64,000 bases of DNA from Oidiodendron maius Zn (lineage: Eukaryota; Ascomycota; Leotiomycetes; Myxotrichaceae), in the NCBI GenBank assembly GCA_000827325.1, contig KN832878.1, forward strand, positions 1,674,001 through 1,738,000, given 5' to 3'. The translations under genes were made by a program, and so were the position numbers. Of this stretch, positions 18,601 to 64,000 are shown piece after piece; the stretch's first letter is position 1, and every line of letters begins with the position of its first letter. The notes beneath the pieces were generated by a model, which saw nothing but the letters and a program-made list of their open reading frames with translations, made no database searches and was not told the DNA's origin.

Positions 18601-21538
18601 ATGTTGAAACTCAAAGCCCTTTATGTAGTCCTGCTGGGAGCTGTGAGCCTTGTTGACAGCACCACAGTGCAAAACATCACAAGTGATACTTACTTCTACG
18701 GTCAATCGCCTCCAGTCTATCCAAGCCGTAAGTTTAGATACCCCGTATAATTGGGAGTGTTAATTGACTTCTTTCACAGCAGTTGGAAAAGGCACAGGCG
18801 ACTGGGCGTCAGCATATGCCAAGGCTGCAGCTATGGTGTCGAAAATGACGCTGGAGGAAAAGGCTGGTTACTAAAGGATACTGACACTAAGAGGGAATAA
18901 CTGACGTTTATAGTCCAATCTTACATTTGGGATTCCAAGTGAAACGAATGGTTGCTCGGGTAATATACCTCCTATTGCTCGTCTGGGGTTTCCTGGTCTC
19001 TGTTGGCAAAATGCAGGTAATGGTGTAGCTGCTACAGACTTTGTGAATAGCTATCCCAGTGGTCTTCACGTTGGTGCAAGGTAGATCTCGGTTTCCCTGA
19101 ACTTTCCTCAAATCCGATATAACCTTACTGAAATGAAGCATTATATAGCTGGAACAAAGCCCTTGCATACCAGCGCGCTCTTGCTATGGGAGGTGAATTC
19201 CGCACGAAAGGTGTTAATGTTGCGCTTGGACCAGGTATATACATTCATATTGCAGCTTTATTATATTAGCTAATGTACTCAGTTGTTGCCCCCCTGGGGC
19301 GCATAGCTGAAGGGGGCAGAAATTGGGAAGGCGAGTTGTCATAAACCTCTCTCTCAAATTCGGTTGTTGGGGCTAATAGATGTCGATTACCAGGGTTTTC
19401 CAACGACCCGTATCTCTGTGGCTCGCTCGTATTTGAAACTGTGCGTGGCATACAAGAGAGGGGTGTCATCACTAGCACGAAGGTAGGTTCAACGGCCCTT
19501 TTTAGTCAAATTGATCAACCAATGACATCGAAGCTCTTAGCATTTTATCGGCTACGAGCAAGAGACAAACCGAATTCCGAGCACAAATCTCGCTGGTATG
19601 TCAGTTAACTCAGTATCATCAAACATTGATGATAAAACCATGCATGAGTTGTATCTCTGGCCCTTCCAAGGTAAGTTATTCATACAGGCGTGGTTTGCTT
19701 TATCATTGACAAATTGCTCAAGATGCAGTCCACGCCGGCAGTGGAACCATAATGTGCTCATACAATCGTATCAATAATTCAGCCGGTTGTGGTAATAGCA
19801 AGACGCTTAATGGGTTGCTAAAGACTGAATTGGGCTTTAATGGTTTTGTGGTCTCAGATTGGTATGGCCAGTATGCTGGTGTTGCGACCACACTTGCCGG
19901 GCTGGATATGACAATGCCAAGTATGCTCAGCATGCTGTCCAAATAGAGCTTGCTAAAGTTTGCATTAGATGAAGGTTTCTGGGGTTCTAGTCTCGTTGCT
20001 TCTATTAATAATGGTTCTGTTCCGATTTCTAGATTGGATGATATGGTTACTAGGTACAGTTGGATTACTTGCCGTTTTGCCGCACACTGGCTGAAAGATA
20101 TCTAGGATCATTGCCGCCTGGTACAAAATGGGCCAAGATAAAGGTTACCCAGCTCCTGGGGCCGGCATACCTGTAGATATTCTCAAGCCTCATATGGCTG
20201 TCAACGCCAGGGAATCAGCCTCCAAAGAAGTCCTCCTCGACGGTGCCATCGAAGGTCATGTTCTCGTTAAAAACATCAAGAATGCCCTACCCCTAAAGTC
20301 TCCAAAGCTCCTCTCACTATTTGGCTACGACACCAAAGCCCCAGATCAGAACAACCCCCCATCCGGATTGACGCCATGGGCATTTGGATTTGAGAGCGCA
20401 AACATTCTTGAGGCGCTTCCTGGTTTCCTCGGCACACCATTGACTGTCCAACTTTCACAGATTGCTATAAATGGGACTATTATCAGTGGGGGCGGGTCCG
20501 GTGCCAATAGCCCGGCTTACATAAATGCCCCTTTCGATGCGTTGCAGGAGAGGGCATACCGTGACAATAGTACTGTTCTCTGGGATTTCGTCAACGTCAA
20601 TGCAACAGCAGCGGTAGATGGAGCCTCTGATGCCTGCTTAGTATTTGTTAACGCCTTTTCTTCGGAGGGTTTTGATCGTGTCGGTATTCATGACGACTAT
20701 TCGGACGCGCTTGTTAACAATGTGGGTGTTTATCTACTGATTCAAATTACACTTGTTGACGTCAATCTAGATCGCGGACCAATGCAGTAACACCATTGTT
20801 ATTATCCACAATGCAGGCGTCCGACTAGTCGACCAATTCATCGACCATCCCAACGTAACTGCCGTTATCTTCGCCCACCTCCCAGGACAAGATTCCGGCC
20901 GCGCCCTCGTGTCTATCCTATACGGTGACTCTTCCCCCTCTGGCAAGCTCCCCTACTCAGTCCCCATGAATGAATCCGCCTACAATTCTCTACTCTCGCC
21001 TTCCCTTCCAACCCCGCCATTTAATTTATTTCCGCAATCAGACTTCACGGAGGGAATGTATATTGATTATCGTGCATTTGACGCCAAGAATATTACTCCC
21101 CGATACGAGTTCGGCTTTGGACTTTCATACACAACATTCTTCTATTCAAACCTCCAGATTGATTGCATCGCCTGTGTCGGCACGCGGTCCATTGCAGAAT
21201 ACCCTGCAGGAGCGATCCTAGAGGGTGGTATGGAAGATCTCTGGGATGTCCTCGTTAAAGTTACCGCTACAGTCGAAAATTCAGGGTCTGCGGATGGAGC
21301 AGAAGTCTCGCAGTTGTATTTGGGAATCCCTGGAGCCCCAGTGCGGCAATTAAGAGGATATAGCAAGGAAGCCATTCCTCCAGGTAAGAGAGTGACTGTT
21401 GAGTTTGATTTAACTAGGAGGGACCTGAGTGTGTGGGATACCACGAGACAGAGCTGGAAGCTACAGAGTGGGACATATACTGTTTATGTTGGCGGAAGCA
21501 GTCGAAACTTGCCGTTAACAAAGACGCTGAAAATATAG
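18601..21538 (+). CDS. secreted GH3 beta-glucosidase
   Basis: Extracellular glycoside hydrolase releasing glucose from cello-oligosaccharides or glucosides. I trace 11 exons: 18601-18727, 18780-18862, 18914-19080, 19149-19234, 19283-19330, 19394-19482, 19541-19670, 19723-19920, 19969-20053, 20106-20721, 20771-21538, giving about 798 residues, the usual size. A signal peptide ([16 protein letters not shown]) starts it. Barrel motifs include [41 protein letters not shown] and [12 protein letters not shown], whose Asp (about residue 289) is the nucleophile. The C-terminal alpha/beta domain ([12 protein letters not shown]) and fibronectin-III-like end ([12 protein letters not shown], then SQLYLG) are present. 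Two junctions are unusual: the intron at 19331 begins GC, and frame at exon 2/3 requires a GC donor at 18863, otherwise the only GT (18867) shifts frame. The gene may therefore be mildly damaged at 18863. Confidence 0.88.
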
Positions 21539-50704: not shown

Positions 50705-52585
50705 TGTTGTCTAGCTAACACTTGATATTCGTCAAGTGGTGACTCACTGCCTAAGTGTATGTATGAGAGCTGTCAGTCAAGTTGAATAGGAATCAGTTCA
50801 ATCGCAACAGTACGACTAGCTCACATAGCTCACACGCAGATTCCCAGAACGGAAATCATTACCCCCACCACAGCAGACGTCTCCCTCATCGGCCGTCTGA
50901 CGACCCCTCAATTTCCGGTGAATCTAACATTGGGGACAATTCCAGGTCTGACGGATACTCCCGCTCCCCGCACTGCTCCCACAAACTAGGGGGCCCAGAT
51001 CCACTAGACGCCGGTGATAATCCCACCTACAAACAATGGAAGGACTTCATCAACGGCAAGATGTATGGGAACCGAGACTGGTTGAAAACTGAACCTGAAC
51101 GCATGTTCTATGTGTTCAGCATGACTAATGGTAAGGCCCGCGACTACTTGCATGCTCGCTGGGGATTTGATTCATACGATCCCTTCTTGAACACGGCGGA
51201 CATGTTTGGGTTCCTAACACAGAACTTCACTAACCCAAACGAAGTCCGAGAAGCCAGGGATGCATATGCCAAGCTAAGGCATGGCTCGACTCCGTTCCCT
51301 AAATTTAGGGTCCAGTTCCTAACGCTGGCGATGCAAGGCCGCATTCCCCGATCTGAGTTCAAGGATGACTTGTTCCGGAAGCTCAGCCCCATGATCAGAG
51401 AGTTGCTATCAGGTGTTGCAACAGACCTGACCTATTACCAGCTGTGCGTGCGTGCGCTCAGTGTGGTCAATGAGGTCCGTATTAACCAGAAACTACTAGT
51501 CGCCAAGAGGGCAGCCAAAGCCCTCCCTACAGCTGCTCAGAGCTACAGTCAAGGCCAAAGAACCTACACACCCGGCTCCGGAACACTCCCAATCCGGAAA
51601 TCCCTCCCACCCGTTCCAGAGCGTCCTGGACGTTCCATAACAACACCTCCTAATCGCCAGCGGTCCAGTACTGCTGAAGAGGTAGACACCTGCCACAATT
51701 GTGGCAAGCCTGGCCACTGGGCCAAAGAGTGTCGGGATCTGCCCAGACCTCGCATCCAGCAGATCAACGAGCTGTACCCTCGGGTCATGGAAGTTATACA
51801 GATGACGAGAAGTCAGGTGCAGAGTCCCAGCCGGAAGATGGCAACGCCTAAGCGAAGACTCCTTCTCAGGCGAGATAGTGGATTTGGCTATATTGGACCG
51901 ATCTCCATTGTTAGGAGGAAGGCTCCTAACTTTCCTATATAATATATCTCTTAATGGGTTTGCTGTTTCGACGTATAGCCTTATCGATACTGGAGCAAAC
52001 GGTTTCGTCTTCATAGACGAAAGATTCGCCCAATTGCTTTGCAGCAAGCTAGGCTGGAAGATTGAGAAACTCCCCTTCCTTCTTTACCAGTTAAAGGATA
52101 TGATAAAAAGCGAGGTACTTCAATTACCGCCTTTCTACACGTCCACCTCAGACTTGATGGGTGTAAAATCTACAATGTCCCCTTTTTAGTCCTCCCCTTG
52201 GGAGCCATGATATCATCATTGGCAAGGCCTCTATAGAATACTTTGATATCTCACCTAGTGTGGCTCAGAAGAGACTCCACTAGCCAGGAAACAATCCTAA
52301 GGCAATTAAGACCATCTCCCAGAGGATCCAGATTCCTAGACAGATCCTTAAGAGACCTCCTTCGGGGAATCACTACCGGCGAGATATGGAAGCTAGGGAC
52401 AAGTGGATTGAACGAGAAGAGAGGAGACGACTGGCAGGATGCAATTCGATCGCCCACATCCACTCAAACGAGTCGTGGTACACTAGTACAGCTTCCCAGA
52501 CCGAGTTGGATAGGCCCTATGAAACCTCCTAGCTTGCCCACAACCCTATTTTTAGCGCCGGGCACAATGAGTCGCTGAATGTGTT
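50705..52585 (+). mobile_element. truncated Ty3/gypsy-type LTR retrotransposon (gag + protease)
   Basis: A gag polyprotein frame runs to 51942. It has a Ser/His/Asn-rich N-terminus, a capsid-like region (YKQWKDFINGKMYGNRDWL through RKLSPMIRELLSG) and a zinc knuckle CHNCGKPGHWAKEC. Overlapping in another frame from about 51920 is an aspartyl protease (YSLIDTGANGFVFID, catalytic DTGA). Reverse transcriptase, RNase H and integrase are missing; sequence after about 52250 has stops and fades into the flank of the synthetase gene. A possible short 5' LTR, 50705-50809, starts TGTTG and ends CAACA, with a 9-nt-arm palindrome (TCAAGTGTT) across its left edge. No 3' LTR was found. Confidence 0.8.
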
Positions 52586-52605: not shown

Positions 52606-54547
52606 CTACAGTTTCGCCGTTCGCTGTCTGCTCTTTATTAATTTGTCTCCCCGTGCTTTCAAAATATGCTTCTTGATTTTTCCACTTCCAGTAACGGGAA
52701 AGTCCTCGTTTGCTCCAAGCCAGAAGATATGTGCCGGTGCCTTGTGCCAGCCCAGGTTCGCCCTTACAAATTCCTGTAATGATTCCGTAGATGGCCGACT
52801 TTGCGATTTACGCGGCTGGAGGAATACCCCAACTACTTCGCCGTACTTTGCATCCGTGATTCCCACAGCAGCGGCCTGGGCAATAGAGGGGTGTTGTACT
52901 AGTCGCTCTTCGATCTCGCGCGGGGCGATGTTCTCCCCACCTATAAGAAGCAAAGATGTTAGTGCATGTTGTACCTAAAGCAGAAATGTGGCATGGCCAA
53001 CCTCTGATGATGATATCCTTGATGCGTCCTGTAATGTAGCAGTATCCTTCTGCGTCGAACATTGCCTCGTCTCCAGTATGCATCCATAATTGCCCATCCT
53101 TGTCAGTACGCATAACTTCTGCTGTTTTCTTCGGATCCTGCCAGTAGCCCTTCTGCAAGGCAAACCCGGACACGCAGAGTTCGCCGCGAGACCCCATTGG
53201 CACGACCTCGCCACTGGCGTCGACTATCTTTGCTGCCATGTGTGGGAGAATCCTGCCAACTGTCGAGAGGCGCTTCTCGATGGGATCATCAGTGAAAGTC
53301 ATGAAACTAGCAGGGGAAGTTTCTGTCATCCCTATCGTCATGCGTTAATAATGTAGTAAGATGAAGGACTAGGATATAACCTACCATACGTATTTGTGAT
53401 CTCGACCATGTTCAGTGTTTTGCGCAGGTCCTCCATCAATTGCTTTGGGACTGGTGCCCCTGCAGCAATTCCCGTTCTTAGGGAAGAAAAGTCCATGCCC
53501 CGTTGCAGAAGGCTCAGTTCAGACGAGAACATGGCGGGCACTCCGTGAAGCGCAGTACAACGTTCATTGGTGACCGCCTGCAGGACGGCTATTGGCTGAA
53601 AAGTCTCACTTGGAAATACAATGCTACTCCTATGTGTTAAAGCAGCTAGAAGTCCGAGCACCAGTCCGAAGCAATGGAACAGAGGTGGTGGGCAGCAGAT
53701 AATATCTCGCGGGGTGAGGCGCATCCTGTCACCAACGAATCGGCCGTTGTTGATTAAGTTTCTAGAGTCAAGTTAGTTAGCGTCCATGATGCCAGAAGAT
53801 AAAAGACAATACCGGTGGGTGAGCATGGCAGCTTTTGGACTGCCGGTCGTACCACTTGTAAATTGGAGATTGCAGACGTCGCCGGCCTTAACCGAGCGAG
53901 TTCTGCGAAATAAATTATCTTCGGATTCATGTTTTCCACATTGGACTAGATTATCATAGGTACGAAACTTCCATGCGTTGTCTGGCTTCAAGATGATCAC
54001 TTCCTGGAGATGCTTCAGATCCTGTTTCAGCTCTTTGCTACTTAGCATATCAAGGACCCCGGAGTTTCGGAACTTTCCAATATTGGCAGCAGTAAAGAGC
54101 AGCTTGCATTCTACTCAAGGTATCAGTGGATGTGGGAATATGGAATATACTTTATATGGTAACGAGACCTGAGTGTTTTAGAGCAGATTTAAGCTCTGTT
54201 GGTGTATACGTGTTGTTCAGAACTACGAGCGCTGCACTGACATGAGAAGCCGCGAAAAAGAGTTCAATATATTGTGGACAGTTCCCTGCTAGGATCCCGA
54301 TGTTGTCTCCTGGGAGAACCCCGGCAGATATGAGGCCCTTCGCAAGGGCCAAGGTGCTCTGATATAACTGCTGGTAAGTAGCGCGATAGTTATGTGAGGG
54401 AAATACTACGCATTGCCGCTGTGGACCCAGCTGTGCTTGCTGTTCCAGCAGCTGGCTAAGAGTTATATCCCAGAGTGGTTGCTCCGTTGAACCTTTCACG
54501 ATCGATAGGGTTCCCGAAGGAAGGGAGTCTGGCAAACTCGTCGTCAT
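52606..54547 (-). CDS. peroxisomal acyl-CoA synthetase (AMP-binding)
   Basis: Adenylate-forming ligase of about 570 residues that would activate a carboxylic acid to its CoA thioester, the entry step of the cluster's pathway. Five exons starting at 54547 join in frame. Motifs in order: [19 protein letters not shown] (P-loop-like A3), [22 protein letters not shown] (A5, formed across an intron), [10 protein letters not shown] (A7), [20 protein letters not shown] (A8, across an intron) and [10 protein letters not shown] (A10 with the catalytic Lys). The chain ends RTAKL, and AKL is a canonical-type PTS1 peroxisome signal. Closest in style to medium-chain or short branched acyl-CoA synthetases (fungal FadD-like, peroxisomal 4-coumarate-ligase relatives). 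It is divergent from the carboxylase beta gene with 455 bp between. Substrate is inferred from neighbours: isovalerate, methylcrotonate or a terpenoid acid. Confidence 0.93.
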
Positions 54548-54812
54548 TCTCTAATATCCAACTAGATATGCAGTGGGGGATGATAATAAGGAAAATATAT
54601 CCAGGTCAAAAATGCTGTAAAAATAATAAAAGCTCTATCTAAGGAAGCAGTCTGAATTAAACATCTCAGGAAGTGCTTCAAATAGCCTTATACATTACAC
54701 CGCCGGCAATAATAACTTCCACACCAGGATATAGGCATGCCCCCCGATAGAGAGTGGCCACTAGGGTGGCTTGTCGGGCGGAAATTGATCGGCATGCTTT
54801 GTCTCCCGGACC

Positions 54813-54819
54813 CGGTCCG
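54813..54819. promoter_or_regulatory. CGGWCCG palindrome in synthetase/carboxylase-beta promoter
   Basis: CGGTCCG lies in the 455-bp region between divergent starts at 54547 and 55003. CGG-N-CCG inverted triplets are a typical zinc-cluster-protein site; the same 7-mer recurs in the other two intergenic regions of the cluster. Confidence 0.45.
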
Positions 54820-55002
54820 TCCACGGCCCACGGAATGATTCCCGCATTTACTACCGGACTGGAGCATGGGGAGCTGGAATTCGGCGCGGATCATGAACGA
54901 CTTGTTTCTATAACAAATACTGGTCTTAGCTCTGTTTACGACGCCGCGAATTTGACAATACTCGTTTTCGCTCAATTCGTGGTTCCTACACTAGAACTCG
55001 CT

Positions 55003-57000
55003 ATGGCGACGGCCTCAACAACTTTCCCGCAGGCGACCAGTCTTGTGGACAGAAAAGCGACCGCATTTCGAGACAACCGATTGAAATGGGAGAAGATAAT
55101 TCATGACTTCGAAAGCGCTTTAGCTGAAGCAAGCCAGGAAAGTAAAGCGCCCAAGGCAATACAAACCCACACCTCGCGGCAACTGCTCGGTAATCTTGTC
55201 TCATGTCTCTTGACCATCTATTCCTGCTAACGAGTTAAAGCCCGCGACAGAGTTGCGCTTCTACGTGATCCGGGAACGCCGTTCCTTGAGCTATGCTCCT
55301 TCGCAGGCCATAAAATGGACGATTCGTCGCCTTCTGCGAGCCTGGTTGCTGGTATTGGTGTAGTGAGGTCCGTGTTGATTTCCGTCTGCAGGGTCAAGGA
55401 AGTAACATATTAAAACAACAGCGATACTGTGTGTATGATACTGGCTCATATCCCGACGTTACAAGGTGGGGCATGGAATGAAATGACAGGTGATGATTAC
55501 AAAAATCCCGGCCATAATATCGTACGCTGATGTCGCTCTAGTTCTGAAGCAAAATCGCATCACTGCTATCGCCTCAGAAAACAACCTGCCACTGATCGCA
55601 CTTGTGCAATCAGTAAGTTGCAATACATCCGAGTACAGTTCTCATTTCTCTGACTAACTATCACCAGGCTGGAGTCTTTCTACCCCAACAATTTCGAGTC
55701 TTCCATAAGGGTGGTCAGATATTCCGTGACCTTGCTCTGAGATCCAAAAATGGGCAGCCAAGCTGTGCCGTTGTGTTCGGGTCTTCCACTGCCGGCGGAG
55801 CATATCATCCAGCATTGTCGGATTACACGATATTCGTCAAAGATCAAGCCCAGGTGTTTCTCGGAGGACCCCCTCTTGTGAAAATGGCGACGGGTGAGAT
55901 AGCAGAAGCTGAAGAACTAGGAGGCGCGGACATGCACTCCACGGTCACCGGATTATCCGACCAGCTCGCAGTTGATGAGTATGCAGGCCTCTATACCCCT
56001 CTGATTTATTAAGCTTACAGATGTAGGCTTGATGCTATTCGAAAAGCTAGGGAATGGGTAATGGCCATTCCTGCGGCACGTACACAGGCAATGCGTATAA
56101 AGCCTGTGCAGGAAATACTGGAACCAAGATATGATGTTGAGGAATTATTTGGTATTATCGATCCAGACATAAGACAGCCGTTGGACATGAGGGAAGTGTT
56201 GTTGCGCATCGTTGACGACTCTCGGATTGAAGATTTCAAACCACTATATGGCAGAGGCATGATCACCGCCTGGGCTCACATTCATGGTTTGTCATCCATC
56301 CCCACATGAGCTAGAAATTTACTGAGATCTTTAGGACATCTGACGGGAATAATTGCGAACCAGCACCCAGTCATCCTTCCCAACGAATCTGATAAGGCTA
56401 CCCATTTCATTGGACTGTGTAATCAAGGGTGAGTCTAATAGTCGCTTCACAACGTTATGGCTGCTGATTACACTCAAATCTAGGCGCAACCCTATTATCT
56501 TCCTTCACAACGTGACTGGCTTCATGGTCGGCCTCAAAACTGAGAGAGCGGGGCTTATAAAAAAAGGAGCCAAGCTCGTGAGTGCCGTTAGTACAAGCAC
56601 TGTTCCACACATCAGCATTATCTGCGGCGCTTCATACGGCGCCGGAAACTACGCCATGTGCGGCCGAGCTTATGCACCACGGTTCCTGTTCTCTTGGCCG
56701 ACAAGTCGGTGTTCTGTAATGGGGCCGGACCAGCTGGGAGGAGTGATGGAAACCATTACGCGCAAGAGTGCGGAGCGTGCAGAAATGGTTATTAATGAAG
56801 AAGAAGTTAAAGCTTCAGTTGCGAAGTTCAGTGACCGGGTGAGAGAAGACTCCAGGTCTTTTCGGACGTCGGCACACTTGTTGGATGACGGTGTGATTGA
56901 TCCCAGAGACACAAGGGATGTGCTGGGGATGTGCTTGGAAGTCGTCGGTCTTGAGAATATCAAGAGCAGCCCAGTCTTTTCTGGGCTTGCGAGACTATGA
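55003..57000 (+). CDS. acyl-CoA carboxylase beta subunit (methylcrotonyl/geranyl-CoA carboxylase type), PTS1
   Basis: Carboxyltransferase subunit that passes carboxybiotin to the gamma carbon of an enoyl-CoA such as 3-methylcrotonyl-CoA. Eight exons (55003-55189, 55241-55367, 55422-55489, 55542-55612, 55668-55978, 56021-56286, 56335-56428, 56484-57000) give 546 residues. Blocks: SLVDRKATAFRDN, ARDRVALLRDPGTPFLEL, AHIPTLQGGAWNEMT, FGSSTAGGAYHPALSDY (oxyanion GG), FLGGPPLVKMATGE, EELGGADMHSTVTG, FLHNVTGFMVG, SYGAGNYAMCGRAY (second oxyanion) and RFLFSWPTSRCSVMGPDQLG. It ends GLARL; ARL is an accepted PTS1 variant. Where bacterial methylcrotonyl carboxylases have Phe (HFGRIF), this has Gly (KGGQIF), resembling geranyl-CoA carboxylase. 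Divergent from the synthetase and convergent with the acyl-CoA dehydrogenase. Intact. Confidence 0.93.
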
Positions 57001-57227
57001 TAGAAGTCATGTACATATAATGGGAAATGTATGCACATTAAAGCAACATACTTAAAATCCAGACTCTTCGGTATCCGTGTTGCTAGCCTTATCTTGGATG
57101 TACAACCATGATGTTGGAAAATTGGAGCACACGCAACCAGTCTGTATGGTCTTCAAACGCATTTAAAGCGTAAGAATCTACTTAAATTGCGCACTGCATA
57201 GGTATTTATATAAGCGATGGTGCAAAT

Positions 57228-58745
57228 TTAGAGCTTACTAGCAGCCGATTGTCCATCCTGATAGATGCTACTCAGGTCAAGTCGTTCCTGCATAAACGCT
57301 AATTCATTTAGAATCTCCTCACTTCCACCACCAACGACCATGACTCGTACATCACGACTAATCTGTTCAATGCGCGCACCCTTCCCAGTTCGAGAGTATC
57401 CAAGACCACCCATAACTTGCTGCGACTCTCTTACAGCCTCTTCCAAGGCCCTGGCGCACGTAACCTTCAGTAGGGCCATTAAACCTCCATACCTTGGTGA
57501 CGAAAGACTAGCCTTATTCGCTTTCGAGTCGGCAATGGCAACAATCGACTCCATGAATGCGTGGGCAGGAAGAATTCGAGTACCAAGTGTGGTGAACTTG
57601 TTGCGGATTGCCTGATGCTCAATGAGATGCATCCCAAATGTAGTCCTTGTAATAGCGTGACTATATGCATCTGCTAGGCAGACGCGTGCCATTCGTAGAC
57701 TGGTACATGCAAGCCAGAGTCGTTCGTGATTGAAATCTACTTTCGTCAGATTGAGTTTTAAACAGGACGGCTAACTTACTTGACATGATCAATTTAAATC
57801 CTTTATTTTCCTCGCCCAAGAGGTTGCTAACAGGCACTTTTACGTCGTCGAATTCGAGATAAGCAGAACCTGTAATGTTAGTTGTACGATAAAATAGAGT
57901 TGGAGAGGAAGGCTCCTTACCGCTTGCTGAAACTCCCGAGTTTAAAATTCTCCGCCTGGTTACCCCCTTTGCATTGAGAGGGATCACCAGAGCAGATATA
58001 CCACCTTTTCCAGCCCCCCCGGTACGAACAGCAGCAGTGCAGTAATCCGCCCACATTCCATTTGTGATCCATTTCTTAGCGCCATTCACAACGTAGATAT
58101 TTCCTCGTCGCACTGCGGTCGTCGAGATATTCGCAACGTCCGATCCAGCTAAATGAGGTTAGATTTGATATAGTGTCATAAATAAAGAGACATACTGTCT
58201 GGCTCTGTAATTCCCAAGCAAAACCGAGTTTCGCCCTTAATTACAGATGGCAAAAAGGAGCTTTTCTGTGATTCGTTGCCGAAAGCGACAACAGGCGGGC
58301 ATCCGATGGAATCACCGCAACTCAACGCCCATATCACACCAAGATAACCACATCGCGCAATTTCGTCGATGCATATGAGATCGTGGAAGCCATCCCATTG
58401 CGCTGGATTAATTCCGCTTGGTAGTTTCGCAGCACCCATGTATTTCGAAACTGCTGCCGGATTTATTGCTACAGCTGTATACCCTCTCCTCGAATGCTCC
58501 CGTAGAACCTGGAACTGTCAGTACCAAGGCACGAATCCCAGATTGGGCCTACTGACTTCTTTTGGGACAAAACCTTGGGCTTCCCACTCTGCACAGCTGG
58601 GTGTGATATTATTTTCCACATAAGCCCGCACTTCATCGCGAAGACGCTCATGCGAGGCGTTGTAGTATGGGCTCTCGCCCCGCGAATACCATAGCGGCTC
58701 TACAAATGGGGTTAGGGAAGAAAGGTTATGAGAGTTTGACATCAT
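57228..58745 (-). CDS. peroxisomal acyl-CoA dehydrogenase/oxidase-like flavoprotein (isovaleryl- or citronellyl-CoA type)
   Basis: FAD enzyme of about 440 residues introducing the alpha-beta double bond into an acyl-CoA before carboxylation. The start is the ATG at 58745. Five exons; the first intron (42 nt) joins GFVPKE to FQVLREHSRRGY. Conserved blocks: YLGVIWALSCGDSIG, LGITEPDSGSDVANI (across an intron; flavin/substrate motif), GAKKWITNGMWADY, YLEFDDVKVPVSNLLGEENKG, NFNHERLWLACTS, FGMHLIEHQAIRNKF, VMGGLGYSRTGKGARIEQ and SRDVRVMVVGGGSEEIL. The C-terminal ASKL gives a perfect PTS1, SKL. Peroxisomal members could pass electrons to oxygen instead of ETF, which cannot be told here. It shares the cluster with carboxylase, hydratase and lyase genes, fitting an isovaleryl-CoA or citronellyl-CoA role. 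Confidence 0.92.
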
Positions 58746-58953
58746 GCGCGGATATAGAAAGAAAGTAAAAGTACAAGATAGTCTCGAGTCAATGTCCAAA
58801 GAACAATCATGCAAAGTAGTCAACGGTCATGAAATCGAAATGAACCAGGTAGAGCCCCGTCACGACAGGTCCGCGAGCGGAGAGCGCCTTCCTCGGGCCT
58901 GTTGTTGACCTGCTAGCGCACTTCTCCAGCCGATCTCATTTGCAGTCTCTACG

Positions 58954-59065
58954 CGGTCCGTATCAAAGATACTGCAGCGATGTCCTCCCGTGGCCAAGAT
59001 GGCGGTGCGGGCAATTTGGTCGGATTTAAGGCTTTGCCGGACACTAACCGGACCGAACCGGACCG
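58954..59065. promoter_or_regulatory. three CGGWCCG palindromes upstream of the acyl-CoA dehydrogenase
   Basis: CGGTCCG at 58954-58960 and CGGACCG at 59049-59055 and 59059-59065; the last two form a 10-bp tandem (ACCGGACCGA then ACCGGACCGT). They lie 210-320 bp before the dehydrogenase ATG and just beyond the 3' end of the lyase gene. Confidence 0.55.
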
Positions 59066-59190
59066 TGTGCACAGTGTGATGAGTTCTCCTTTGCATGCGG
59101 GGTAAAGGGGGACAATGGTGATGCTGTACCATGTCAACAATTGAAAGTGTTTGATATACCATCTAATTTAATATTTTACAATATAGTTAA

Positions 59191-61001
59191 TCATAGTCTG
59201 GACCTGTTTGCTGTTGGAGATAGTGCATCCCAATCGATGACCTTAACGCCGCTCCGGAATTTCTGCAACGCAAACTTCGACTCTGATCCGTCAGCCATCA
59301 TAGACTTAAATGAATCTTTTATCACGCGTGCCTGTATCTCACCCCCAGCATCTGTCCACGCAGACTTGAGCAAATCTTTGCTCAAGGATGACGCCCCTGG
59401 TGCAGAGAAGCGCAGGCGGTCTAGAAGTCTCTCCAGTTCTGCCTCTAGCGTGTCTTTGTCAGGAACAACTTTGTATACAGCCCGTAAGCCCTCGAGTTCT
59501 GAAGGCTGGACATCCTGTGCCGTCAGTATGGCTCCACGGGCGAAGCCAAACCCCCATTCGCGGATTACGTATTTTGATATCGTTGCGGGACAGAGACCGA
59601 GCCGAACCTCACTCAGCCTGAACGTAGCGTTTGATGTAACAAGCCGTATGTCGCAGACAAACGCAAGCCCGACTCCGCCTCCAAGGCAAGATCCGTTGAT
59701 TGCTGCAATGGTGGTTTTAGGACAGGAATCAATGACATCAAAAAGTTCTCTGAGTGCTGAAAACATCTCTTCAGATGTGGCGGTGCCTTTAAGATCCATC
59801 CCGGTGCAGAAAAATTTTCCCTCCGAACTTAAAACGATGCGGAAGACGCTTGCATCCGCCGAAAACCTCTTGTAGAGTTTAATAAGAGCTTGAATCATCC
59901 CATAGGTTAGAGCATTGCCGTTTCGCGGTCGCGTAAGTTGAATCTTGATATTGGCGCCTCTTCGATATACACAATACTCCGAGGTCCTTTCCAAAACGGT
60001 CCATGGTCGTGTCTGTGCCGTTTTTATTGGAGATACAGAAGCCTTTTTGGCAAGTATTGCTTGTCCAGCACGACTCCCGTTCGGGATCTTGAGCTGCTCT
60101 GATATCCATGCTCCTGTAGCAGCGACGTGATCGAGGTTGACGCCGGTCTCGATGCCCATCCGATGCAGAGTATACACCAGATCTTCTGTTGACAGGTTAC
60201 CTCTCGCTCCCTTTGCAAAAGGGCATCCACCAAGGCCCGCAACACTGCTATCAAATGTACGCAGCCCTAACTCGTAACTTTTGACCACATTGGCAACGGC
60301 CTGTCCGTATGTATCATGGAAATGACCTGCCAGACGCTCCGCCGGTATCGTAATCAGAATCTCCCTCAAAAGTTTCTCTACGTCGCCCGGCGTTCCAACA
60401 CCTAGTGTATCTCCGAGGCTGACTTCGTAGCAGCCTGCATCTAAGAGGGCTTTTGTAACTTTGATCACACTCGAAGCCTGCGTTGGTCCATCGTAAGGGT
60501 CAGCGAAAATGCAGGAGACATAGCTAAATATTAGAGTTAGCATACCTGAGTCACTAGAAAACGAAAAATCGCATACCCTCTAATCTTTACTCCTAAAACT
60601 CTAGCCCTTTCTGCAACCTCTCGAACCCTGAGCAAGGACTCATCCACGGTGCAGTTGATGTTCTTCTTGCTGAAGCCTTCAGTCGCCGAAACGAAGACAG
60701 CAATCTCTCGTACCCCGCACTGGTGAGCCAGCTCGAGTCCTTTGATGTTTGGAACTAGAACCGGGAACTGAATGGACTTGCTCGGTGACTCAATAATGTG
60801 TTTGATGCCATCCAGAACCTGAGGGGCATCCGCTAGCTGTGGGATCCATTTCGGGGATACGAACGAAGTTGCCTCAATAATTGAAAGACCCGATTCAGCG
60901 AGCCGTTCAATGAGCCTAACTTTGGTTGACGTGGGCAAAATTCCGGAGATGTTCTGGAGACCGTCACGAGGTCCAACCTCTACTATTCTGACTTTCACCA
61001 T
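59191..61001 (-). CDS. fused HMG-CoA lyase / enoyl-CoA hydratase, PTS1
   Basis: One polypeptide of 585 residues from exons 61001-60577 and 60523-59191. Residues 1 to about 298 are HMG-CoA lyase: VEVGPRDGLQN with catalytic Arg12-Asp13, ATSFVSPKWIPQLAD, a splice giving IRGYVSCIFADPYDG, HFHDTYGQA metal-binding His, and GLGGCPFAKGARGNLSTED with the active-site Cys near 241. After a linker of about 20 residues, about 322-585 is a crotonase: LTRPRNGNALTYGM, FCTGMDLKG, AINGSCLGGGVGLAFVCDIR (oxyanion hole) and EVRLGLCPATISKYV with the catalytic Glu region. The C-terminus SRL is a PTS1. A methylglutaconyl-CoA-type hydratase makes HMG-CoA, and the lyase splits it to acetoacetate and acetyl-CoA, so the fusion joins consecutive steps. 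It is divergent from the carboxylase alpha gene (376 bp). The frame is continuous through the fusion, so this is not two genes merged by error. Confidence 0.94.
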
Positions 61002-61190
61002 CTCTGCACTACAATGACAATGTAAACAGGGAAAGCGCAATATGAGAAACCGAACGTTGCCTCTTGGATTAGATAAGAGATTGGGTTGCATCTGCCTGGA
61101 TAAACAATCTAGATCTTACTGCTATTCATAACAAACGAGGAGCTGCATCCGGGTTTCGCCCCTCCGAGGCATATGCCGCTGTCCAACACG

Positions 61191-61210
61191 CGGACCGAGG
61201 TGGCGGACCG
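61191..61210. promoter_or_regulatory. two CGGWCCG palindromes between lyase/hydratase and carboxylase alpha genes
   Basis: CGGACCG at 61191-61197 and again at 61204-61210, 13 bp centre to centre, in the 376-bp region between divergent starts at 61001 and 61378. Confidence 0.55.
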
Positions 61211-61377
61211 CTGACGGCCCAACCTAGAAGCATGTCGGGTAAGCCATTTGTATATGGTCCGGAACCGCGGAGGAACGCTTCATGATTTCTAGAATACAGT
61301 CTTATTTAATCCAGGATATTTGAGCATTTCAGCAAGTTGAATATCATCTTTTCGGCCCAAAGAATCTAACGAGAAGC

Positions 61378-63810
61378 ATGCCGAGTGCGACCAGCCATGC
61401 GGCATCTGCCCCAGTCAACAAGGTGCCGCTCAGGACGTTTGACCAAGAGATAAGCTCTTCTGGCGCTATCAAACGCATTTTAATAGTCAATCGAGGGGAG
61501 ATAGCTTGCAGGGTAATAGATACGTGCCGAAAACTTGGGATAACTTCCATTGCTGTCTATACAGAATCGTACGGCTCCTTGCTCTACTGTCGCTTTCCCG
61601 TGGCAAAATAAAACTAATTGTATCATAGCGAGGCACACTCATTGCACGTCAAAAGGGCAGACCAGGCAATTAATCTGGGCCCAGTTGATGGCCTACAAGG
61701 CAATCCATATCAAAACATCGAGCTTCTCGTTAAAACCGCACTCGCCAACAAGGCAGACGCTGTTCATCCCGGCTACGGATTCCTGAGCGAAAATGCTGGA
61801 TTATCCAAACGTATACAAGATGCAGGGCTGCAGTTTCTTGGCCCCTCCCCGAATAGCATGGCTGTGCTTGGTGACAAGCGCTCGGCGAAACAATACCTTC
61901 TCAAGCATGCGCCCCAGGTACCTTTAATACCGGGTTACAATGGATCAGAACAAAACCCCGATCAACTTCTATCCCAGGCGGATCGGATAGGCTTTCCAAT
62001 TCTCATAAAGGCCTCCGCAGGTGGCGGAGGGAAAGGGATGAGAATTGTTCGTGAAAGGCAGCGGTTCGCAGATGAGCTGGAGAGAGCCAAGTCGGAAGCA
62101 CAAAGGTCATTTGGCTCTTCAGACTGCATACTAGAGAAGTATATCGAGAGGAGTAAGCATGTTGAAATTCAGATCCTGGGAGATCGGTATGGGACGGTGG
62201 TTTCCCTGTTAGATCGTGAATGCTCCATCCAGCGCCGGCATCAGAAAGTGATTGAGGAGGCGCCATCTCCCTGGCTCTCACCAGATCTACGGAAGCAAAT
62301 GAGCACCACGGCAGTTTTAATCGGAAATCTATTAAAGTACGAGAGTGCTGGTACGGTGGAGTTTATTATCGATATCGACACAGCAAACTACTACTTCCTC
62401 GAGGTGAACACGCGGATTCAGGTCGAGCATCCAATCACTGAGGAAACTGTTGGATTGGATATCGTTGCTCTCCAAGTTTATATTGCTGGTGGAGGACGAC
62501 TAGATGCCTTGGGATATCTCAATAACGGAATGGCCCCCCAGGTTGGACATGCTATCGAATGCCGTCTTTGCGCAGAGGACCCCGCGCGAGACTTCATGCC
62601 GGACTTGGGAACCATCGTAAGATGGACACCGGCAACGGAAATATTACCAGCTTCTGAGAGCGAGCATGTTCGATTTGAAACTGGCATCGAGACCGGATCG
62701 CAGATTTCGATCAACTTTGACTCCCTTGTAGCAAAGATCGTGGTTTGGGCTCCCACGCGAGAGCTCGCAATTACGAAAATGGTCAAGATGCTCTCCCATA
62801 CAGTCTGCATCGGTGTCAGAAGCAACCAGTCTTTTCTCCAGGCCTGCCTCCTCCACCCTAGATTCCATGATCCGGCATACACGACAAGCTTCATACCCGA
62901 CCTCATGGAGACGCTTCTCAAGAACCCATTTGTCCCGAGCCTTCTTGAAGCCACCCAGCTGCTCACATTAGCTCCCTCTCTACACCGTAGAATGGCCCAA
63001 GCCGCATCTAGGTCAAGGCCGTTCTCTAGCATCTCGCATGGATTTCGAAACCAAAAGGCAGACCCCGCCAACGTCCAGGCAGATGTTGTGCAGGTTCCAA
63101 GGCAATCCAACTGCGCTTTCATTGTCGAATGGCCGTCTCAGGGTTTTCAATTGCGTGAAGCAAGAACGCGGGCAGTGAACATTATCCCTCTGTCCAATCC
63201 AAACGAAAATACCTCCGCGACCGAAGAAGAAGAGGAAAAATCTAGCTTAATGCTCGCACGTCAATACAACCGCCTCAGCTCACAAGTTCGGAAACTTAAT
63301 AGTTCGACCGACTGCACATCCCAACACCAGGCAAGGATCCAAACACGCAGAAGCGCCATATTTCAGGAAAGCCCGACTTTATCCTGGGATCTCAAGGACT
63401 TTGTACTAGAAGTCGACGCCGAGAGGTATTTCGTATATGCCGCCATCAGCTCCTCCACGTCGGTTTCAGACGCTGGCGGGTATCAGAAGTTCCACGCCCA
63501 TATTCCCGCTCTAGGGACGAATGTTGAGTACTACCTATACTCGTTACTATCTTATGGGGAATCACTAAGGGCAAGCGCAAAGGCATTGTCTGCTGCATTG
63601 GAAGCGAATCCGAGAGCGCCGATGCCATGCAAGGTTCTGAGCGTTTCGAAGAAGGATGGAGACGTTATAGATGCAGGGGAAGTAGGAATGGTTGTTGAAA
63701 GTATGAAGATGGAGATGAATGTGCTGGCTAATACCAAAGGAACGTTTAAGGCAAAGTTTCAGCAGGGAGATGCAGTGGAGGAGGGGAGTGTGTTATTTAC
63801 CGTCACTTGA
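61378..63810 (+). CDS. biotin-dependent acyl-CoA carboxylase alpha subunit (MCC/GCC type)
   Basis: Biotin carboxylase plus biotin carrier subunit, 790 residues from exons 61378-61568 and 61629-63810; the 60-nt intron joins SIAVYTES to [13 protein letters not shown]. Domains: biotin carboxylase N-domain ([16 protein letters not shown]), [18 protein letters not shown]-grasp glycine loop [44 protein letters not shown], catalytic [17 protein letters not shown], and C-domain [15 protein letters not shown]. The biotinyl domain has [10 protein letters not shown], Lys about 757 being the biotin site. Length and order fit methylcrotonyl/geranyl-CoA carboxylase rather than pyruvate carboxylase. The C-terminus VLFTVT is not a PTS1, and I see no clear PTS2 or mitochondrial presequence. 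As alpha6beta6 complexes form before import, it could enter peroxisomes with the ARL-tagged beta subunit. The central region around 500-600 is poorly conserved. Confidence 0.94.
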
Positions 63811-63872: not shown

Positions 63873-64000
63873 CTAAGCACCGAAGTCCATAGGTGCGCCA
63901 CCAAAGTATGACGTGAATGGAGATAGCCCTTCGAACCCTAGACTTGGATTGGGTGATTGCTCATTGAGCGGAATCGCTGAGCTTGAGATGTAGCGATAGG
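63873..64000 (-). CDS. possible 3' end of a further gene, unidentified
   Basis: On the minus strand an open frame enters from the window edge and stops at 63873-63875 (…SFTSYFGGAP-like, ending PMDFGA). Composition rich in Ser, Pro, Gly and Phe resembles C-terminal tails of fungal zinc-cluster regulators, and its position just past the catabolic cluster would suit a pathway regulator. Only about 42 codons are visible, so neither the coding status nor the function is secure. Confidence 0.3.
   Translation of the reverse strand, partial: YRYISSSAIPLNEQSPNPSLGFEGLSPFTSYFGGAPMDFGA

Follow-up and report, generated by a model that had tools for sequence, protein, structure and literature searches.

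We analyzed a 64,000-nucleotide stretch of the genome of the ascomycete Oidiodendron maius Zn, hereafter the window (contig KN832878.1, positions 1674001–1738000, i.e., G000:C9:1674001-1738000; the genome comprises 45.9 Mb in 58 contigs). Five genes at window positions 52606–63810 encode, in this order, an acyl-CoA synthetase, a biotin-dependent carboxylase β-subunit, an acyl-CoA dehydrogenase, a lyase/hydratase fusion and the carboxylase α-subunit. From their sequences we consider it probable, if well short of certain, that they form a conserved, co-regulated fungal cluster which would serve to degrade, in peroxisomes, 3-methyl-branched acids exceeding isovalerate in size, most likely acids of isoprenoid type. 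More tentatively, we suggest that filamentous ascomycetes may break down isoprenoid acids (of the geranate, farnesoate or phytenate type) in peroxisomes by a biotin-dependent route, whose carboxylase would represent a third γ-carboxylase lineage distinct from methylcrotonoyl-CoA carboxylase (MCC) and bacterial geranyl-CoA carboxylase (GCC).

Gene content of the cluster

In gene models that we assembled manually around the splice sites in the sequence, all five genes read through without interruption from start codon to stop codon, with 17 GT-AG introns of 42–61 nt (synthetase four, β-subunit seven, dehydrogenase four, fusion and α-subunit one each). The AMP-forming synthetase (minus strand, 52606–54547; 572 residues) has five exons (54547–54169, 54110–53813, 53761–53385, 53331–53002 and 52940–52606) and a Pfam AMP-binding domain (309.4 bits). 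The carboxyltransferase β-subunit (plus strand, 55003–57000; eight exons, 546 residues) matches Carboxyl_trans, and the dehydrogenase (minus strand, 57228–58745; five exons, 442 residues) the Acyl-CoA_dh N, M and C domains. In the fusion (minus strand, 59191–61001; exons 61001–60577 and 60523–59191; 585 residues), a 3-hydroxy-3-methylglutaryl-CoA (HMG-CoA) lyase half of about residues 3–301 (HMGL-like) precedes a glutaconyl-CoA-hydratase-type half of about residues 334–549 (ECH_1). The biotin carboxylase/biotin carrier α-subunit (plus strand, 61378–63810; exons 61378–61568 and 61629–63810; 790 residues) carries Biotin_carb_N, CPSase_L_D2, Biotin_carb_C and Biotin_lipoyl domains and the biotinyl motif ESMKMEM. 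The original prediction, made from the DNA letters, of five contiguous and intact genes in this order is hence confirmed. Their described arrangement in divergent pairs holds for synthetase/β-subunit and fusion/α-subunit but not for the dehydrogenase, which shares the strand of the fusion, is situated downstream of it and stands tail-to-tail with the β-subunit.

With NCBIfam models, the synthetase, β-subunit, dehydrogenase, hydratase half and α-subunit stayed below every cut-off among the matches listed, i.e., the best 25 of 109 families for the synthetase, of 88 for the fusion and of 35 for the α-subunit. The lyase half passed the HMG-CoA lyase model NF004283 (397.4 versus a cut-off of 246), and it keeps the PRDGLQN, H-HDTYGQ and GLGGCP stretches when aligned to the human lyase 2cw6.

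A separate mitochondrial-type set

Genome searches for carboxyltransferase, HMGL and biotin-carboxylase domains located genes for MCC-α, MCC-β and isovaleryl-CoA dehydrogenase (IVD) side by side at C1:3583–3590k. The N-termini of all three resemble mitochondrial presequences by eye, and the MCC-β reads SSFGRIF, i.e., the Phe form, at the selectivity site discussed below. An HMG-CoA lyase gene at C5:460k likewise has a mitochondrial-looking N-terminus by eye. A second MCC/IVD/HMG-CoA lyase set is therefore present, which rules out that the cluster is the only one in the genome, and the earlier claim that it is distinct from mitochondrial leucine catabolism stands.

The searches also found a third acyl-CoA carboxylase pair, with divergent α- and β-genes, at C9:413–417k (L029:4783–8822). 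Its α-subunit ends in GGSKL, a type 1 peroxisomal targeting signal (PTS1), and its β-subunit is 24% identical to the window β-subunit over the aligned part. It is possibly another peroxisomal carboxylase.

The β-subunit has an open-pocket signature and lies outside the MCC clade

In MCC-β, Phe191, preceded by a three-residue insertion, takes the place of Gly162 in GCC-β, and swapping this residue shifts substrate preference (Jurado 2015, PMC4673880). According to the same report, wild-type GCC is very weak and MCC F191G essentially inactive on 3-methylcrotonyl-CoA (PMC4673880). The window β-subunit aligned without gaps to the GCC β-subunit 5ikl through this site, its Gly166 lying opposite a Gly of 5ikl. 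We take the latter to be Gly162 of GCC-β. The four other chains listed, of MCC/AccD1 type (4q0g, 9yx0, 3u9r and 9tps) have Phe and three extra residues compared with the window protein, which thus lacks both MCC features and shows the Gly without insertion characteristic of GCC. Among its best 120 homologues, none has the insertion, and 108 carry Gly, nine Ala and three Thr at the site. In protein structure (PDB) searches, the β-subunit matched nine chains at 346–429 bits, their names being MCC, GCC, AccD1 or similar; one of them, 9tps, is named propionyl-CoA carboxylase, yet has the insertion. The next match, the first of propionyl-CoA carboxylase type, reached 191 bits. By these scores, the β-subunit belongs on the γ-carboxylating side.

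We calculated a β-subunit tree of 73 rows, i.e., 11 of the 21 aligned fungal β-subunits (window included), 42 insertion-free bacterial ones, 19 of 38 with the insertion and the genome's own MCC-β; the trait columns were excluded. This and all other trees are quick searches without bootstrap. MCC formed a single clade of 20 rows including the own MCC-β (support 100 in the Shimodaira–Hasegawa-like approximate likelihood ratio test, SH-aLRT), and the window β-subunit fell outside it. It also fell outside the single clade of AtuC-type β-subunits (SH-aLRT 95) from the bacterial Atu (acyclic terpene utilization) type. The fungal family was one clade (SH-aLRT 100), sister to 11 Bacteroidota β-subunits (95) and apart from MCC and AtuC. 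AtuC and MCC can be told apart at 45 positions; there the window β-subunit shares 10 residues with AtuC and 19 with MCC and agrees with neither in the remaining 16.

The insertion occurs in 38 of 80 aligned bacterial β-subunits; in the other 42 the site is Gly (35), Tyr (4), Ala (2) or Ser (1). Since the insertion-free state is found in non-MCC β-subunits of several phyla, this state is probably the ancestral one, from which the MCC form derives. For the same reason it excludes MCC without pointing to geranyl-CoA in particular: Gly at this site reads as "not MCC" rather than "geranyl". The Gly that had been noticed in the β-subunit is thus real and lies at the GCC/MCC selectivity site, but the tree and the residue count rule out taking it as proof of a GCC. 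The Bacteroidota sister β-subunits, of GCC type, also lack the insertion, and seven have Gly at the site (L033–L035, L037, L038, L040 and L042); the other four differ in having Tyr (L045, L046, L050 and L053). At the 11 Bacteroidota loci, moreover, HMG-CoA lyase matches are absent from the flanks, and adjacent hydratases, where found, lack the PATIS motif.

Dehydrogenase and hydratase form fungal clades of their own

In a tree of 37 of 46 neighbours and eight fungal rows (over-long reading frames were omitted), the dehydrogenase fell into a fungal clade (support 100) outside the IVD and AtuD groups. The genome's own IVD was placed elsewhere, in a clade of 17 (support 100) to which the dehydrogenase does not belong. 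The score against PRK11561, named isovaleryl-CoA dehydrogenase, was 43.4, below the cut-off of 545. The protein shares with AtuD a Glu (Glu278) in the ERL/ERM motif and a GGG close to the C-terminus (NFNHERLWLAC and VVGGGSEEI versus QFQEERLWGAA and SIGGGADEI in AtuD), yet it does not group with AtuD.

The hydratase half was analyzed with 45 of 49 neighbours and six fungal rows, again omitting over-long reading frames. It fell into a fungal clade (support 100) outside both AtuE and the MCC-linked hydratases. Against NF004227, the family of AtuE (γ-carboxygeranoyl-CoA or isohexenylglutaconyl-CoA hydratase), it scored 89.4, far from the cut-off of 426. Its motif SEVRLGLCPATISKYV is close to that of LiuC/methylglutaconyl-CoA hydratase, yet the two are separate clades in the tree. 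The best PDB match was 4zu2, a putative isohexenylglutaconyl-CoA hydratase. We dropped this match as a discriminator because MCC-neighbour hydratases performed equally in tblastn (up to 112 versus 110 bits) and the motif is nearer to theirs. The siderophore hydratase SidH (7oeq) matched weakly, with 55 bits.

A decayed second fusion lies at G000:C44:36600–38426 (L132:600–2420). It is 62% identical to the first, lacks about the first 200 residues and ends in AKL. It is followed by a 30-residue dehydrogenase fragment, in order and orientation as in the cluster. In the family searches, contig C44 gave no α- or β-subunit matches.

Peroxisomal targeting signals

Four of the five proteins end in PTS1 tripeptides, i.e., the synthetase in AKL, the β-subunit in ARL, the dehydrogenase in SKL and the fusion in SRL. 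We ran protein homologue searches with the fusion, the β-subunit and the dehydrogenase and used 120 homologues of each (the best-scoring ones listed rather than a fungal sample, and some of them fragments). A PTS1-like end, [SAPC][KRHN][LIM], is present in 116 of 120 β-subunit, 97 of 120 fusion and 95 of 120 dehydrogenase homologues, compared with 0.6–1.0% of internal tripeptides. The signals that had been claimed for the cluster are therefore borne out on four proteins and kept in homologues of three. They argue for peroxisomes as the probable location of the enzymes.

The α-subunit ends in TVT, without PTS1, and by eye its N-terminus gave no match to the PTS2 consensus. It would hence need to enter peroxisomes bound to the β-subunit, which would be imported through its ARL signal, and we propose such a piggy-back import.

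A shared promoter motif and a neighbouring regulator

The cluster extends beyond the window end. A gene for a Zn2Cys6/Fungal_trans regulator, convergent with the α-gene and 62 bp from it, has its 3′ end at 63873–64000 (minus strand); the model is partial, with a start near C9:1740311 (L025:2311). Its end in the window and the Zn2Cys6 motif were read from the sequence, and Fungal_trans was assigned by domain scan.

CGG half-sites are recognition elements of Zn2Cys6 proteins. We spotted by eye the motif CGGWCCG (CGG-W-CCG) in the cluster promoters, as CGGTCCG at 54813–54819 (plus strand) in the divergent synthetase/β-subunit promoter, as three CGGWCCG sites at 58954, 59049 and 59059 (58954–59065, plus strand) upstream of the dehydrogenase and as two CGGACCG sites at 61191 and 61204 (61191–61210, plus strand) in the divergent fusion/α-subunit promoter. 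The window holds 10 copies where 4.2 are expected, and six of these lie in the three cluster promoters (one, three and two) compared with about 0.09 expected. As a control we counted all 7-mers exhaustively; CGGACCG came out on top of the three 7-mers common to all three promoters, with a Poisson p of 7.6e-10 before correction for the number of 7-mers tested. The regulator start, too, is preceded by a CGGWCCG copy, at a distance of about 390 bp. No copy was present in three control stretches, taken near the MCC genes of mitochondrial type and near the third carboxylase pair. The neighbouring Zn2Cys6 protein may thus switch the cluster on through these candidate sites, and we infer co-regulation of the five genes.

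In 80 kb from eight other loci of the genome we counted 10 copies, including the one upstream of the regulator and five in L031. The latter (L031:47–557) are spaced regularly at 126 bases, which suggests a tandem repeat.

Conservation in other fungi

The nearest database relatives, from Hyphodiscus, Lachnellula, Cadophora, Coniosporium and similar fungi, fit a filamentous ascomycete, as do the short introns. In nine other fungi, which we take to be ascomycetes, locus tags place two or three of the cluster genes close together, a few genes apart at most.

Fungal β-subunits with the open pocket are often named methylcrotonoyl-CoA carboxylase and the fusions HMG-CoA lyase, a few of them "mitochondrial". 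Among proteins so named, the residue typical of MCC is missing or the C-terminal tripeptide is PTS1-like, and the naming is probably a systematic misannotation. Fungal proteins called methylcrotonoyl-CoA carboxylase, some of them "mitochondrial", may hence be neither.

Proposed route and alternative readings

A 3-methyl group stops β-oxidation; in the Atu/Liu pathways it is removed by γ-carboxylation, hydration and lyase cleavage (PMC4097962). We propose that the cluster enzymes would act likewise. The synthetase would form the CoA ester of a free acid, and the dehydrogenase would yield the 3-methyl-2-enoyl-CoA. The α/β biotin carboxylase would then carboxylate the 3-methyl (γ) carbon, the hydratase half of the fusion would add water, and the lyase half would remove a C2 unit to leave a 3-oxo compound for ordinary β-oxidation. 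The domains of the five genes fit consecutive reactions. From the open pocket we would expect chains of more than five carbons, and from the presence of a synthetase, free acids as input.

Several observations weigh against this proposal. The synthetase belongs to a family too broad to name a substrate, and the α-subunit lacks a signal of its own. The Glu and GGG of the dehydrogenase occur in seven other bacterial relatives as well and so are not AtuD-specific. Likeness to Atu is further reduced by the position of the β-subunit outside the AtuC clade, by its count of AtuC-like residues and by the wide occurrence of the insertion-free state. The hydratase motif SEVRLGLCPATISKYV is closer to the MCC-linked SEVxxGLxPATISPYV type than to PETxLGxxPAQIAPFV of AtuE. 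We offer no explanation for how such a dehydrogenase would hand on its electrons in peroxisomes. Moreover, the genome holds an expanded dehydrogenase family, with stretches 39–57% identical (e.g., at C1:3025k, C33:61k, C7:774k, C9:459k, C17:477k, C5:2150k, C9:1530k and C2:680k). In Fonsecaea pedrosoi, locus tags place the β-subunit homologue away from the fusion/dehydrogenase pair.

Mitochondrial leucine degradation (IVD, MCC-α/β, methylglutaconyl-CoA hydratase and HMG-CoA lyase) uses the same chemistry on a 3-methyl-branched acyl-CoA. The cluster might accordingly duplicate the last steps of leucine breakdown in peroxisomes, acting on C5 acids (free isovalerate or 3-methylcrotonate) with the reactions as in mitochondria. 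The identical reaction set, the hydratase motif, a lyase half whose family score is that of an ordinary HMG-CoA lyase and the 19 MCC-like positions of the β-subunit all agree with it. We nevertheless regard it as unlikely: the β-subunit lacks the MCC Phe and insertion and lies outside the MCC clade, the dehydrogenase is outside the clade of the own IVD, and GCC and MCC F191G perform poorly on 3-methylcrotonyl-CoA (PMC4673880). The genome's own mitochondrial-type copy, in addition, is separate and differs in its N-termini, in the Phe and insertion of its MCC-β and in the clade of its IVD. Less likely still is a biosynthetic use, in which the cluster would supply a specialised metabolite with a building block that is γ-carboxylated or of 3-hydroxy-3-methylglutaryl type. 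One homologue carries the name "putative secondary metabolism biosynthetic enzyme", and dehydrogenase relatives from other fungi are called apdG and AFT10-1, names known from biosynthetic clusters. Peroxisomal acyl-CoA enzymes are known in fungal biosynthesis, e.g., the siderophore enzymes SidI/SidH/SidF, where a peroxisomal ligase and hydratase likewise act on a branched acyl-CoA (PMC3709128); those three include no biotin carboxylase and no lyase. Against this use, the cluster genes make up a full degradative series ending in a C–C lyase, and related sets occur in distant ascomycetes. By eye, we recognised no polyketide, peptide or terpene synthase among open reading frames of at least 150 residues at window positions 20000–52600 or at least 90 residues in L025, some of which were Pfam-scanned.

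The bacterial Atu system of Pseudomonas (AtuH, AtuD, AtuC/F and AtuE, with the LiuE lyase) comprises these five activities, arranged in the order proposed here (PMC4097962). The open carboxylase pocket and the AtuD-like active-site motifs are further common features, and the hydratase half finds its best PDB match in 4zu2. The Atu-type reading of the cluster in the original prediction therefore fits as chemistry. It does not fit as ancestry: β-subunit, dehydrogenase and hydratase each form fungal clades outside those of Atu, the β-subunit is more MCC- than AtuC-like at the 45 discriminating positions, and the hydratase half falls far short of the AtuE family cut-off. The fungal set is also eukaryotic and PTS1-tagged, and its lyase and hydratase are fused within the cluster, whereas the Pseudomonas lyase LiuE is not an atu gene. 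A lyase homologue was not found in the flanks of 13 Atu-type loci. We hence consider it very improbable that the cluster is a true Atu pathway taken as a set from bacteria and dedicated to geranyl-CoA/citronellyl-CoA.

Relation to known systems

Fungal degradation of 3-methyl-branched, isoprenoid-derived acids seems sparsely described. Older reports exist of GCC activity in plants. Lombard and Moreira, writing in 2011, stated that GCC had been observed in bacteria only (PMC3199775). A 2014 review counts ATU/LIU, from Pseudomonas, among just three fully known monoterpene pathways and describes fungi as mainly transforming monoterpenes, with growth of Grosmannia clavigera on a terpene mixture as a recent case (PMC4097962). 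In Histoplasma, the endogenously biotinylated proteins marked in one report are pyruvate carboxylase and MCC only (PMC13343957). In searches of open-licence papers for a fungal GCC or a peroxisomal carboxylase cluster, we found no description of the present one. If our proposal of a peroxisomal route is true, a biotin carboxylase would operate inside peroxisomes, and fungi would gain a way past the 3-methyl block to β-oxidation. The set unites a regulator gene and a candidate operator with PTS1-tagged enzymes and an open-pocket carboxylase, which makes the proposal testable.

Neighbouring features

At the synthetase end, the cluster is flanked by a retroelement gag-like open reading frame with a CCHC zinc knuckle (window 50782–51942). 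Past the regulator lies an open frame of 1232 residues with repeated GH32 (invertase-type) domains (L025:3865–7563).

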